Origin: Haloarcula limicola
GTDB taxonomy: Archaea > Halobacteriota > Halobacteria > Halobacteriales > Haloarculaceae
Direction of reading: 5' to 3'
Assembly: GCF_010119205.1 (NCBI RefSeq)
Contig: NZ_WRXM01000005.1
Coordinates: 124,001-188,000 of the forward strand
Length of the DNA: 64,000 bases
The translations under genes and the position numbers were made by a program. Below are positions 20,702 through 54,770 of the stretch, piece after piece (the first letter of the stretch is position 1; the number at the start of each line of letters is the position of its first letter). The notes under the pieces are model-generated. The model did no database searches, was not told where the DNA came from, and worked only from the letters and a program-made list of their open reading frames with translations.

Positions 20702-21103
20702 TCAATACGATTCGACAGGCACGCCGTCGAACGCCTCGAAATCAGCCGTATTCTGTGTCACGACAGTCGCTCCGAGTTCTTTCGCGACGGCTGCGATCAG
20801 AAGATCGCCGGTAAGGGCATTGATTGTGTCTTGCTTCAACTCGTCGTCTTGGCGTAAGCCCGCCTCTAGCTCTCCGGCGACGACGGCGTGATCGAACTCG
20901 AAGGGGATGATGGTCGTCCACTCGAACTTTGCGCGCAGTTCAGTCGGGCTGAGCTTCCCCTGTATCGCCCGCCCAACCGCGAGTTCCTTCATATTCAATG
21001 TCGTCGTCACGAACTCGTGGTCGTCGTGGGCCGCCAGATATTCCTCGATCGACATCCGGCCGGCCCAATAGTGAATGAGAAAGGTCGTATCGAGGAGTTT
21101 CAT
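20702..21103 (-). CDS. VapC-type PIN toxin
   Basis: This 133-residue PIN ribonuclease has D5 (KLLDTTFLIHYW), E40 (TLNMKELAVGRA), D100 (LTGDLLIAAVAKELG) and D121 (TQNTADFEAFDGV). The last motif is typical of classical VapC. Its ATG overlaps the antitoxin stop (21100-21103, ATGA). It is predicted to cleave tRNA or rRNA. The usual start MKLLDTTFL was chosen over a longer frame to 21127. Confidence 0.9.
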   Translation of the reverse strand: MKLLDTTFLIHYWAGRMSIEEYLAAHDDHEFVTTTLNMKELAVGRAIQGKLSPTELRAKFEWTTIIPFEFDHAVVAGELEAGLRQDDELKQDTINALTGDLLIAAVAKELGATVVTQNTADFEAFDGVPVESY

Positions 21104-21405
21104 TCGTCCCGGTCCTGGTCCCCGCACGTAGACTCTGACTCCGTCTCCATCGCATCAGCGAGTTCTTCGAGTGCGTCTTGCTGGCGTGTTGCGAGGCCGC
21201 TACTCGTCTGCGTGCGAGACTCGGCGGCGATGCGTTCGAGAGCCGCTGCCGCGTCTGATTCTAGTCCCCCAAACCCGTCGCGCCAGTCGCCCGGCGATTC
21301 GTCTAACAGCCTGTCCATCAGGTCCGTGAAACTCTCACCCTCGCGCTTTCTGGCTTTCAGGCGCTCATACACGTCGTCTCGAACGCCGATGGTTTTCGTC
21401 CCCAT
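21100..21405 (-). CDS. VapB-type antitoxin (DUF217-like)
   Basis: This 101-residue protein starts MGTKTIGVRDDVYERLKARK, followed by GESFTDLMDRLLDESPGDWR. This is the haloarchaeal VapB layout, in which KTIGVRDDVYERLKxxKREGESF forms a ribbon-helix-helix DNA-binding fold. The Ala/Glu-rich C-terminus (AAAALERIAAESRTQTSSG) likely interacts with VapC. ATG 21405 is 1 nt from the 26-bp palindrome and is chosen over GTG 21456, which would read through the palindrome. Confidence 0.9.
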   Translation of the reverse strand: MGTKTIGVRDDVYERLKARKREGESFTDLMDRLLDESPGDWRDGFGGLESDAAAALERIAAESRTQTSSGLATRQQDALEELADAMETESESTCGDQDRDE

Positions 21406-22080: not shown

Positions 22081-22124
22081 GCTAACCAACAATCCTAAGT
22101 GAATCTCGACCACTGTTGGTTAGC
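22081..22124. promoter_or_regulatory. Conserved inverted-repeat site, copy 1
   Basis: GCTAACCAACA, 24 nt, then TTGGTTAGC, ending 2 nt before the ATG at 22127. The same halves with the same 24-nt spacing occur at 46578-46621 and 53877-53920. Arms CTAACCAA/TTGGTTAG are perfect inverted repeats. Confidence 0.7.
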
Positions 22125-22126
22125 AA

Positions 22127-22486
22127 ATGAGCAACCGTTCCCATGCCGAGGCGGCACTTGCAGAACTCCAGAAGGTAGACAGAGCGTCGTTGGACGAGTC
22201 AGCGGCCACGACCTACGACCAGACAGCCGATCACCTCGAATCCCTTCTCGATGACCTCAACACAGCAACCACGGACGACCGGCCGACCGACGTCAAGACC
22301 CCGGACGACTGGGACGAGGATGAGTGGACAGACCAACTCCAAGCGGCGCGTGAGAAAGCGGCACTGCCGCCGACCAAGGGAACGCTCACAACGAAGACGA
22401 TCGACGACCGTGACTACTACTATCTCCAGTGGCGAGACGGTGAGATCATCAGGAGCCAATACGTGGGTCCGGTCGATCCAGCTTGA
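22127..22486 (+). CDS. Small YYYLQW-motif protein (DUF6788-like)
   Basis: This 119-residue acidic protein has an N-terminal helical part (AEAALAELQKVDRASLDESA, HLESLLDDLN) and a C-terminal beta-hairpin module: KGTLTTKTIDDRDYYYLQWR then IIRSQYVGPV. The module (KGTxxxKxxxxRxYYYLQWRxG...YxGPV) is shared with DUF6788-like proteins of mobile DNA. Function unknown; DNA contact is possible given the basic, aromatic hairpin. A second locus at 46220-46575 has the same gene, broken by a frameshift, and both have the same upstream inverted-repeat site. Confidence 0.75.
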   Translation: MSNRSHAEAALAELQKVDRASLDESAATTYDQTADHLESLLDDLNTATTDDRPTDVKTPDDWDEDEWTDQLQAAREKAALPPTKGTLTTKTIDDRDYYYLQWRDGEIIRSQYVGPVDPA

Positions 22487-44627: not shown

Positions 44628-45860
44628 TTATACGTCAGAATCGATCTCATCAAGAGCTTCTGTCGCAACATCCCCCAGCTCCCCGGCTTCGATATGTGAA
44701 TATCGCTCTCGTACCATCTCCTCGGAGTTGTCGAGATAGCGGGCTGCAACCGTATATCCGAACGCTCTAACGAGGACCTCTCCCATCCCCCGTCGACCGC
44801 CGTGCGGAGCAAGATAGTCGTGTTTCGGATGGTCGATGTCGATCTCCGCCGCGTCTGAGAGTCGCTGGAGAATCGATCGTGCACCGTCCGTTGTAATCGA
44901 CGGCGGTCGCACGTCTTCCTCAAGCGCTAGCAACAGGTCGCGCGCGTACTCGTCACGTCGCTCATCGATTGCGTCTGGGCGTTCCCCTCGGTCAGCCAGT
45001 TCGCCCTGCACGAGCGTTGCGAGCGTTCGCTGGTCGAACGTCGGGAACACTGGCCAGCGCTCAGTCGGTGGGTCAATGAGCTTGCGGTAGCTCCGCAGCG
45101 GCGAAATCACGGGGTCGGGGAGGCTTGCGGCATCCCACCGCTGTTTCTTCCGGTAGACGTCCATACTTCCATCCTCGAGCGAGATATCCTCCCAGCGAAC
45201 CCCGCGCCGGCGCGGATCGTTCGGATCTCGGAGCAGTTCGCCAACGCGAACGGCTGTGTACGCGAGCACGAACACGAGCGCACGGTCACGAGCTGCTTTC
45301 AGTGCTATGTATCGCGCCCGCTGCTTATCGAGAGATTCAGTATCCTCCGGAAGTGTCGTGTACGTCTCGATAGCGTCTCGGGCCCGCTCGTCGACGTGGC
45401 GGGTGAGTGCGTGACGCTGCTCAGACGTCCAGGCCTGCTGATCACCAGGCTTGCGACCGTCGTCATCGGGCAGTGGTGCCATCGCACTCGCCCGCTGGGC
45501 GTAGTGCGCTTCGAGATACCCTTCGTTGACGCACCAGCCACACCACGCAGAGATATAGCGATAATAGGTTTGTACGGTATTCTGCTTGAGCCCTCGATCA
45601 CCAGCGAGATGGCGAGCGTATTCACGGAAGACGCGTTCGTCGAGGTCTTCGAAGGTGGGTTCCCGGTCAACGTCGTTGGGGACGACCCCGGTCCAGTCAT
45701 CGTCACCGCGGTCACCGGCAGTCCACTCAACGAACCGCTCGAGTTCGCGTGCTGCGTTGCGCCGATAGTTTCCGCCGTCACCACCACGGCCTTTCCCCTT
45801 GTCCTGGAGGTACCGCTCGAAGCTGTCCGCAAGCGATGTCGAAAGTGCGCGGTCAGGCAT
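44628..45860 (-). CDS. Tyrosine recombinase/phage-type integrase
   Basis: This protein of about 410 residues has a SAM-like N-terminal core-binding domain (SLADSFERYLQDKGKGRG, NTVQTYYRYISAWCGWCVNE) and a C-terminal catalytic domain. Active-site residues are visible: Arg in YTAVRVGELLRDPN, His-x-x-Arg in APHGGRRGMGEVLVRAF and the nucleophile Tyr in EEMVRERYSHIE. It would catalyse site-specific integration/excision of a mobile element. ATG 45860 (MPDRALSTSLADS) is preferred over GTG 45953. A strong inverted repeat lies upstream. No attachment site or tRNA gene was found. Confidence 0.9.
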   Translation of the reverse strand: MPDRALSTSLADSFERYLQDKGKGRGGDGGNYRRNAARELERFVEWTAGDRGDDDWTGVVPNDVDREPTFEDLDERVFREYARHLAGDRGLKQNTVQTYYRYISAWCGWCVNEGYLEAHYAQRASAMAPLPDDDGRKPGDQQAWTSEQRHALTRHVDERARDAIETYTTLPEDTESLDKQRARYIALKAARDRALVFVLAYTAVRVGELLRDPNDPRRRGVRWEDISLEDGSMDVYRKKQRWDAASLPDPVISPLRSYRKLIDPPTERWPVFPTFDQRTLATLVQGELADRGERPDAIDERRDEYARDLLLALEEDVRPPSITTDGARSILQRLSDAAEIDIDHPKHDYLAPHGGRRGMGEVLVRAFGYTVAARYLDNSEEMVRERYSHIEAGELGDVATEALDEIDSDV

Positions 45861-46219: not shown

Positions 46220-46575
46220 TTACGCCGGCTCGACCGGCCCGACGTATTGGCTCTTGATCTGGTCGCCCTCTCGCCACTGCAGGTAGTAGTAACTTCGCCC
46301 ATCGATACGCTTCGTCGTTAGAGTCCCTTTTCCAGTCGGGACATTGGCTTTCTTACGGGCGATTTCGAGGACCTTGTCCCAATCCTCGTCATCATCCCAC
46401 CTATCAGGGGCCTCGATGTCTTGCTCCTTTTCGGCGCTTGGCTGTCATCGAGAACCTCAACTAGCGCCTCGACGGCGATGACCGCGTCTTCGTGAACTAC
46501 TTCTACATGGTTGCTGTCTGGTTCGATGTCTTGCAGTGTCTCCAGTGCTCGCATTGCTTGATCGGCGTCGTTCAT
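46220..46575 (-). pseudogene. Frameshifted relative of the YYYLQW-motif protein
   Basis: The frame from ATG 46575 gives MNDADQAMRALETLQDIEPD and VVHEDAVIAVEALVEVLDDS, then diverges. In the +1 frame the sequence continues as EKEQDIEAPDRWDDDEDWDK, ARKKANVPTGKGTLTTKRID and SYYYLQWREGDQIKSQYVGP before the TAA at 46220. One frameshift therefore separates two halves of a protein homologous to 22127-22486. The upstream inverted-repeat site is conserved. Confidence 0.75.
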
Positions 46576-46577
46576 GG

Positions 46578-46621
46578 GCTAACCAATACGAGCCGGATAA
46601 TTAGCTATTTTGTTGGTTAGT
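46578..46621. promoter_or_regulatory. Conserved inverted-repeat site, copy 2
   Basis: Reading toward the gene: ACTAACCAACA, 24 nt, TTGGTTAGC, then 2 nt and the ATG at 46575. Same geometry and same start-codon distance as the site at 22081, although the gene is frameshifted. Confidence 0.7.
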
Positions 46622-52357: not shown

Positions 52358-53636
52358 CGTGGCGCTGTTCGAGGTGACGAATCTCACGAAACACTTCCCG
52401 ATCACGAAAGGCGTTCTTCGACGACAAATTGGGGCTGTCAGGGCCGTTGACGGTATCGACCTTACGGTTCAGCGCGGTGAGACCGTTGGCCTCGTCGGCG
52501 AATCTGGCTGTGGGAAATCGACCGCCGCACGGACGATGCTTCGCCTCGAAGAACCGACGAGCGGCTCGATTCGGTTCGATGGACGAGAGGTTACGGAGAT
52601 GTCGGGCGACGCGCTCACGGCGTTTCGGCGGAACGCACAGATGATATTTCAGGATCCGAGCGCCAGTTTCGACCCGCGAATGTCCATTGGTGAATCCGTC
52701 GCCGAACCGCTTGGTATCCATGGCATTACCGACCGGACGCTTCGCCGAGAGGTTGTAACGGATCTGTTAGAGCGTGTCGGCTTATCGGCGAACGATATCG
52801 ATAGATATCCGCACGAGTTCTCCGGCGGACAGAAACAGCGCATCGCACTCGCCCGGGCGCTCGTCTTGGGCCCGGATCTCCTGCTCGCTGACGAACCGAC
52901 CAGCGCGTTAGACGTCTCCGTAAAGTCCGAGATTCTTACCCTCATCGCGGATATTCAACGGGAGTTCGACCTCGGAGTCCTTTTCATAAGTCATGATATG
53001 GGGGTCGTTCGGCAGATCTGTGACCGCACCCTTGTAATGTATTTGGGCGAAATCGTCGAAGCCGCCCCGACCAAGCGTCTCTTTGAGTCTCCACAACACC
53101 CATATACAGAGGTTCTCGTTGCATCGATTCCAACTATCGATCCTCGGAAGCGTGGCCACCGAGTCAGGTTGCGTGGCGCCGTCCCATCTCCGAGTGACCC
53201 GCCAAGTGGTTGCCGGTTCCACACTCGGTGTCCAAAAGTTATCCCACCCGAGGGATATGACCTTGAACAGCGCAACTGGCGAGCAATCCTTGACTTCCGA
53301 CTTCGACTTGCCAAGGAGCAAATCGAGCCTGAAGCCCTTCGAGCGACCGTCGCTACCGAGACCGCCTGTCCCAGTGAACACGTCGCGGACGACCACATTC
53401 AAGAGACCATTCGAGCGGCTCTTGACCTGCCACGGTCCCTTGATGATCCCCAAGCCGATGCAATTCTTACTGCGGCGTTGAACCGCGTCCTCACCGACGA
53501 TGTGACTGGTGCACACGAGCTCCTCGCTGATGCATTTCCAACGATCTGTGCACGCGACACCCCGGACACTGTGTGGCTTACCGATGAACACTCTGCCGCC
53601 TGTCACCTCTTGGAGTCAGACGACGCACGCTACTAG
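52350..53636 (+). CDS. Dipeptide/oligopeptide ABC transporter ATPase (DppF type), long C-terminus
   Basis: This protein of about 428 residues has Walker A GESGCGKSTA, signature FSGGQKQRI, Walker B LLLADEPTSALDV and CRFHTRCPKVIPPEG. After the ATPase domain comes a C-terminal extension of about 110 residues (WRAILDFRLRLAKEQIEPEA, DLPRSLDDPQADAILTAALN), seen in haloarchaeal relatives. ATG 52350 overlaps the DppD-type end by 8 nt. It completes the five-gene operon. Confidence 0.92.
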   Translation: MGDVALFEVTNLTKHFPITKGVLRRQIGAVRAVDGIDLTVQRGETVGLVGESGCGKSTAARTMLRLEEPTSGSIRFDGREVTEMSGDALTAFRRNAQMIFQDPSASFDPRMSIGESVAEPLGIHGITDRTLRREVVTDLLERVGLSANDIDRYPHEFSGGQKQRIALARALVLGPDLLLADEPTSALDVSVKSEILTLIADIQREFDLGVLFISHDMGVVRQICDRTLVMYLGEIVEAAPTKRLFESPQHPYTEVLVASIPTIDPRKRGHRVRLRGAVPSPSDPPSGCRFHTRCPKVIPPEGYDLEQRNWRAILDFRLRLAKEQIEPEALRATVATETACPSEHVADDHIQETIRAALDLPRSLDDPQADAILTAALNRVLTDDVTGAHELLADAFPTICARDTPDTVWLTDEHSAACHLLESDDARY

Positions 53637-53876: not shown

Positions 53877-53920
53877 GCTAACCAACAAAACAGCGATATC
53901 TCACCCCCATCTTGGTTAGC
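53877..53920. promoter_or_regulatory. Conserved inverted-repeat site, copy 3 (no gene behind it)
   Basis: GCTAACCAACA, 24 nt, TTGGTTAGC, same as at 22081 and 46578. Here the 2-nt AA spacer is followed by CGCGGTG and not ATG. It lies between the dipeptide operon and the polyamine-type operon; 53637-53975 contains no real gene. It may be a relic of a lost gene or a site for a shared factor. Confidence 0.6.
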
Positions 53921-53975: not shown

Positions 53976-54770
53976 TCAGGAGGAGGTGAGACGGCGACTG
54001 GACAGTGCGACCACGAGCATGATGACGATAAGCACGACCGAGAGCGCGTTGATCGTCGGCGTCAGTCCCGTCCGGAGCATTGTGTAGATAACGACCGGAA
54101 CAGTGCTCGTGCCGGGAGAGATCAGAAATTGCGTCGCGGTAAACTCGCCAAACGAGACGACAAAGGCGATGAACCCGCCGGCGAGGATGGCCGGTGAGAT
54201 GATTGGTCCAGTCACGTTGCGGAACGTCGTTACCGGGTCAGCACCGAGCACCCGCGACGCGCGTTCGAGGTCCTCGTCGAACGTCAGCAATTCTGATCGG
54301 ACGAGCAGGAACACATATGGAAGCGAGAGCACAGTATGACCCAGAACGAGTGCTGGGTAACCAGACGGAAGCTGAATCGTCCCAAAGTATCGGACAAGCG
54401 CAATGCCTGTGATGACAGGCGAGATGATCATCGGCAGCAACATTACAGTCGAGACCTGCTGTTTGTAGGGGAACTCAGCGCGCACAAATCCGATCGCCGC
54501 GATAGTGCCGATGATACCCGAGAGAATCGCTGATGCCGTCGCGACGACCAGGCTCACCGTCAGTGCATTGATCAGCTTGTCGTCCTGCAGGAGCTGCTCA
54601 TACCACGCTAGCGAGACGCCCTCCTGTGGAATTGCCGGGAACGACTGCGTGGTGAACGACGTCAGCACGACGATGATGACTGGCAAGAGCAGGAAGGCAA
54701 ACACCACGGCGATGATGGCACGGAACGAAAGCCCGCGCAGTCGCGTTGTGGCGCTCGTGCTCGTGCTCAT
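53976..54770 (-). CDS. Spermidine/putrescine-type ABC permease (PotC type)
   Basis: This 264-residue permease has six helices and typical PotC segments: FAFLLLPVIIVVLTSFTTQ, VMLLPMIISPVITGIALVRY, the coupling motif EDLERASRVLGADPVTTFRN and FIAFVVSFGEFTATQFLISP. It is the last gene of a four-gene minus-strand operon, overlapping the PotB-type gene by 4 nt. It forms half of the membrane channel. Confidence 0.9.
   Translation of the reverse strand: MSTSTSATTRLRGLSFRAIIAVVFAFLLLPVIIVVLTSFTTQSFPAIPQEGVSLAWYEQLLQDDKLINALTVSLVVATASAILSGIIGTIAAIGFVRAEFPYKQQVSTVMLLPMIISPVITGIALVRYFGTIQLPSGYPALVLGHTVLSLPYVFLLVRSELLTFDEDLERASRVLGADPVTTFRNVTGPIISPAILAGGFIAFVVSFGEFTATQFLISPGTSTVPVVIYTMLRTGLTPTINALSVVLIVIMLVVALSSRRLTSS

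Follow-up and report, generated by a model that had tools for sequence, protein, structure and literature searches.

Three exact copies of the inverted repeat CTAACCAA-N26-TTGGTTAG, 42 bp each, lie in the window, by which we mean the whole 64,000-nucleotide stretch analysed here, part of the 202-kb contig C5 of Haloarcula limicola. The pattern has 0 matches in 100 dinucleotide shuffles, which bears out the inverted repeat that a preliminary description had noticed at three loci. Site 1 (22082..22123, also readable as CTAACCAAC-N24-GTTGGTTAG) stands 3 nt 5' of the ATG of an intact gene (22127..22486, + strand) for P0001, a 119-aa protein of the YYYLQW family and the proposed site-binding protein. 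Site 2 (46579..46620; the - strand reads CTAACCAACAAAATAGCTAATTATCCGGCTCGTATTGGTTAG) stands 3 nt 5' of the ATG of a decayed YYYLQW gene, whose N-terminal half (46318..46575, - strand; an intact relative is found in L461) is an 85-aa frame with a frameshift after VLDDSQ and whose C-terminal half (46223..46444, - strand) lies in another frame, QPSAEKEQDIEAPDRW...YYYLQWREGDQIKSQYVGPVEPA. The equal gap to the two start codons was correctly described: it is 3 nt from the end of TTGGTTAG, or 2 nt if the repeat is counted one base longer. The two downstream genes are indeed homologous, the second being frameshifted. Site 3 (53878..53919) is a dispersed copy amid converging genes, a + strand gene that ends at 53636 and a - strand gene that ends at 53976, and, as had been reported, no gene follows it: there is no start codon behind it. 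A second decayed LQW copy on C5, L472 (7900-9500 of the contig), is a fragment that has a broken N-terminus and is not preceded by a site, which brings the LQW copies on this contig to one intact and two decayed. Some 700 bp upstream of site 1, the - strand encodes at 20702-21405 of the window what by eye is a VapBC-like pair, a PIN-like toxin with a small antitoxin. Very similar tyrosine-recombinase-like proteins (MPDR[AT]LSTSL..) are found near the decayed LQW gene (window 44628-45860) and, on the 98-kb contig C6, downstream of parA-orfB (92279-93511).

From its translation, the family alignment and an AlphaFold model (mean pLDDT 81.6, pTM 0.43), P0001 is predicted to consist of a helical N-terminal part (helices 3-15, 24-49 and 64-77) and a C-terminal three-stranded sheet, KGTLTTKTIDDRDYYYLQWRDGEIIRSQYVGPV (strands 86-92, 95-104 and 107-115). 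The protein has no Pfam, NCBIfam or PDB sequence match and its model no PDB fold match; a ParB/Srx domain was not found in the YYYLQW protein in the Pfam, NCBIfam and PDB searches, the model does not resemble a PadR-like winged helix-turn-helix (the fold search gave no match), and there is no ParA-type ATPase next to the window gene. Of 391 Halobacteria genomes sampled, 285 encode a member of the family, as do 226 named plasmids.

The whole genome (7 contigs, 3.9 Mb) contains eight exact sites, four on C5 and four on C6, and the reversed control pattern has 0 matches genome-wide. Exact sites are absent from the contigs other than C5 and C6, where a search with shorter arms also found none, and in Haloarcula limicola they are confined to these two plasmid-sized contigs. 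A ninth site, on C6, is a T..A variant (87350-87390), and the C6 paralogue, a 107-aa YYYWQW protein, starts 14 nt after this T..A site; C6 has C-type sites and no LQW gene. Two lone CTAACCAA half-sites, their partners absent, were seen at C6 46544 and 72042; exact half-sites on C5 are always paired. Individual genomes of the genus Haloarcula contain up to 18 matches to the site pattern (reversed control, 0) and up to 25 to the sister pattern TTAACCAAC..GTTGGTTAA. A restriction to plasmids, true for Haloarcula limicola, was rejected as a general rule, given that the sites of G033 lie in the 805-1103 kb stretch of a 3.5-Mb contig. Strictly fixed spacing was rejected as well: the preliminary description had the same spacing at all copies, which holds within the window and fails across 125 distinct sites, whose lengths range from 38 to 43 bp (41 or 42 bp in 109). 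That description had also read AT-rich parts of the spacer as TATA candidates. An AT-rich centre does exist, but 80 C-type sites outside the list of family-adjacent sites share it, so a TATA box was rejected as its sole cause; being also present in dispersed sites that lie away from the family's genes, the AT-rich centre belongs to the site as such and is not just a TATA box. We found no paper describing these repeats.

What links the sites to the proteins is the covariation of site type with the C-terminal domain. The YYYLQW genes with a site have C..G in 17 of 20 cases, T..G in two, C..A in one and T..A in none, six more being siteless in the searched span; mixed T..G sites are those of the LQW genes in G015 and G028. 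All 43 YYY/YRYWQW genes with a site have T..A and none C..G (5 more siteless in the searched span), and all three YFYWQW genes have TTACCCCAC..GTGGGGTAA sites. Comparing the site types of YYYLQW with those of YYY/YRYWQW genes gives a Fisher p of 3e-15, which overstates the evidence because clades are not independent. Sites of the TTACCCCAC type occur in four of 32 genus genomes, and three of these (G014, G024, G027) have a YFYWQW gene; the fourth, G034, has a family relative with a stop codon, its type unread. At the genome level, using presence lists from our own tally, genomes with an LQW gene or its remnant contain more C-sites, and those with a WQW gene more T-sites; G007, G009, G030 and G035 keep 9-15 C-sites, and only interrupted or decayed LQW genes were found there. 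Family genes that have a site mostly start 1-17 nt 3' of it, and some (L402, L403, L404, G014:C11) were seen to have a second site just downstream in addition to the upstream one. A protein of another genus (L060) is a chimera of a WQW-like N-terminus and an LQW C-terminus, and its site is C..G.

Haloviruses encode related proteins. In ChaoS9, whose three sites lie in front of gp49 and at the ends of orc1 and gp80, the ATG of gp49 (YYYYQW) follows a T..A site at a distance of 1 nt. The N-terminus of gp49 recurs in PhiH1_250 and its phiCh1 counterpart, which differ from gp49 at the C-terminus and go with a further type, CTTATCAAACA, in the form TTATCAAACA..TGTTTGATAA at a constant 44 bp. The chimera, these shared N-termini with differing C-termini and sites, and the type counts lead us to conclude that, on sequence comparison, the site sequence follows the C-terminal domain, through few independent events. 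The C-terminal half of PhiH1_250 matches DUF6788 (PF20586) with E 3.7e-5, just under the cut-off, whereas YYYLQW and YYYWQW proteins reach no Pfam family cut-off. Of the three phiH1 sites, one is at the start of the PhiH1_245-250 operon, with the mapped transcription start T8 inside its right arm; another is immediately upstream of the start of parA, and the third separates the converging genes repH and imm. Viruses of the phiH group have a ParA-type ATPase gene, and the provirus state of phiH1 and phiCh1 is a circular plasmid (PMC6471424); the family gene is listed as uncharacterised in the ChaoS9 and phiH1 papers.

Placement was assessed for 66 sites, a set that includes many orthologues and hence not independent cases, with gene calls that are our own codon-score calls. 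None of the 66 lies inside predicted coding sequence, though 66-87% of each region is coding; 32 are in tandem, 23 in divergent and 11 in convergent intergenic orientation, against a background of 216:100:83, and the divergent excess is largely due to the family's own genes. The sites cluster near the protein gene, at a geometric-mean distance of 13 kb compared with 68 kb for random placement on the contig, on contigs that we chose and with one length being a lower bound. The preliminary description had proposed a genome-wide motif search listing downstream genes, and had counted against its own reading a motif at random places unrelated to gene starts. That counter-evidence is half present: most sites are not tied to promoters, yet their placement is clearly not random, as they are intergenic, conserved and clustered at the protein gene. 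Among the neighbours, Orc1/Cdc6 lies within 7 kb in 17 of 18 WQW loci, one of them a fragment, many of these loci sharing one plasmid backbone and so not being independent; the queries used found no close ParA at the 18 WQW loci (flanks up to 7 kb), and 10 LQW genes have a ParA-type Walker ATPase motif no more than about 2 kb away. The gene orfB (L486, L487, L424; after parA in phiH1, phiCh1 and pNG500) encodes a protein that by eye is ribbon-helix-helix-like with a disordered N-terminus; this protein has no Pfam match and may partner ParA in the manner of ParG. At L338, L358, L368 and L380, two sites spaced by about 355-360 bp recur upstream of a gene for a 182-aa protein (MDRTDWPTPGPNEPVPAWDEYRQL..); this pair is conserved in several species, its second site sometimes being T..A or mixed.

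Could the arms instead pair in RNA, as hairpins or terminators? A perfect inverted repeat of 8-13 bp beside start or stop codons is what invites this idea, but there is no Rfam match, and no pairing covariation is seen beyond position 1. In the 125-site set, position 1 is symmetric in 122 of 125 sites, positions 2-8 are fixed by the search pattern itself, and at positions 10-18 cross-dyad matches are close to or below expectation with a small excess at 15 (position 10: 102 matches against 99.8 expected). RNA structure was rejected on these grounds and we consider it extremely improbable; the symmetric position 1, with no pairing at positions 10-18, points to two identical protein-bound half-sites rather than an RNA stem. 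Remains of mobile elements (MITE/SMR) or site-specific recombination sites would also be expected in many plasmid copies, intergenic and at gene boundaries, and haloarchaea have many small inverted-repeat elements (PMC3119063). This origin is nonetheless very improbable, given that spacers are mostly unrelated between loci, leaving no copied unit and no shared crossover sequence, that the sites follow the protein type, and that collinear orthologous sites on related plasmids of G008, G014 and G015 keep their arms (119/120 and 97/100 identical) while their spacers diverge (99/129 and 73/109).

Protein-bound sites need not belong to the YYYxQW proteins, which would be mere neighbours if it were orfB that bound the sites and these served as centromeres for ParA and orfB. 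The gene order parA, orfB, site, LQW in pNG500 and pHsi540 and the presence of parA-orfB in viruses fit such a view, and orfB may be a centromere binder of its own. We judge it improbable, however: G011 encodes twice a ParA 95% identical to that of C6 and has no site and no intact YYYxQW gene, which argues against ParA/orfB as owner of the sites, the queries used found no parA close to many-site WQW loci, and the site type tracks the YYYxQW C-terminal domain. Unlikely, if to be taken more seriously, is a plasmid-wide transcriptional regulator of the KorB/KorA kind that represses itself and a regulon through many plasmid promoters, with partition uninvolved. Sites directly 5' of the family's own genes, the phiH1 sites at the operon start overlapping T8 and upstream of parA, and dispersed sites 20-80 nt before some genes all favour it. 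On the other side, convergent regions hold dispersed sites at background rate (11/66 against 21%), examples being site 3 of the window and, in phiH1 and phiCh1, the site that follows repH, and several sites overlap the preceding gene, providing its stop codon via their TAA. Operators preferentially at the promoters of many plasmid genes were not found, since the orientation classes of the dispersed sites resemble background.

We therefore favour, with a probability of roughly 0.6 for the reading as a whole, a plasmid-maintenance protein that binds DNA, regulates its own gene and has dispersed, centromere-like sites. The inverted repeats would be two-half-site DNA targets of a family of small plasmid proteins of haloarchaea with a YYYxQW beta-sheet domain at the C-terminal end, and a dimer or two-armed protein would read two 9-10-bp arms whose centres are about three helical turns apart. 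That the YYYxQW family binds these sites is very likely, being the simplest account of the covariation between the C-terminal domain and the type of site. Autoregulation is likely, one site covering the start of the gene that encodes the protein: in most family loci with a site the start codon follows within 1-17 nt, and the phiH1 site overlaps the mapped start T8. The self-regulating YYYLQW protein of the preliminary description thus appears well supported at the sequence level; its dedicated regulator was partly right, as a promoter operator alone leaves the dispersed sites unexplained and can be only part of the story, given that most sites are not tied to promoters and convergent regions hold them at background frequency. 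These other sites, intergenic around the replication/partition region, would probably be centromere-like (parS-like) loading sites for replicon maintenance, a function exerted beside Orc1/Cdc6 and often ParA. This partition or maintenance role is plausible, at somewhat less than even odds, and fits sites that are dispersed, conserved, intergenic, close to the protein gene, beside replication/partition genes, and present in viruses with plasmid-provirus relatives; the alternative would be a regulatory or DNA-organising role. Weighing against the favoured reading are the many C-sites of G007, G009, G030 and G035, where the LQW genes found are all broken, the C-sites of C6, which has no LQW gene, the WQW loci at which the queries used found Orc1 and no close ParA, the possibility that orfB binds a centromere itself, and the failure of the fold search to recognise a known DNA-binding fold.

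Such an arrangement has partial counterparts. Bacterial ParABS systems have several conserved intergenic inverted-repeat parS sites around maintenance genes, and the YYYxQW system likewise has several conserved intergenic inverted repeats clustered at maintenance genes; it differs in that its proteins have no ParB/CTPase homology, the half-sites are 18-25 bp apart and one site lies right beside the start codon of the protein's gene. Global plasmid regulators of the KorB type are autoregulated plasmid proteins with many dispersed operators; many dispersed sites and proposed autoregulation are shared, but the sequence is unrelated and the dispersed sites have no promoter preference. In the AspA-ParB-ParA system of the archaeal plasmid pNOB8, AspA is a winged-helix protein with one 23-bp site, whereas the YYYxQW system has a three-stranded sheet domain, split sites of 38-44 bp in many dispersed copies, and frequent linkage to Orc1 instead of ParA.

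The form of archaeal plasmid centromeres, their clustered or dispersed arrangement and the segregation of multiple replicons in haloarchaea have been listed as open questions (PMC5120986). With its four or more sequence types and a matching protein family, the site described here is a concrete genome-wide candidate for an archaeal plasmid centromere, for which ChaoS9 and the phiH1 L region offer small natural test systems, and it provides haloarchaeal genetics with a predictable candidate protein-DNA code. More tentatively, the family might represent a new class of archaeal replicon segregation, in which an autoregulated centromere-binding protein of unrecognised fold loads at dispersed sites and its C-terminal domain can be exchanged, each version dictating a site type (C..G, T..A, TTACCCCAC, CTTATCAAACA) specific to the replicon. 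If so, co-resident haloarchaeal megaplasmids and plasmid-proviruses would segregate independently.
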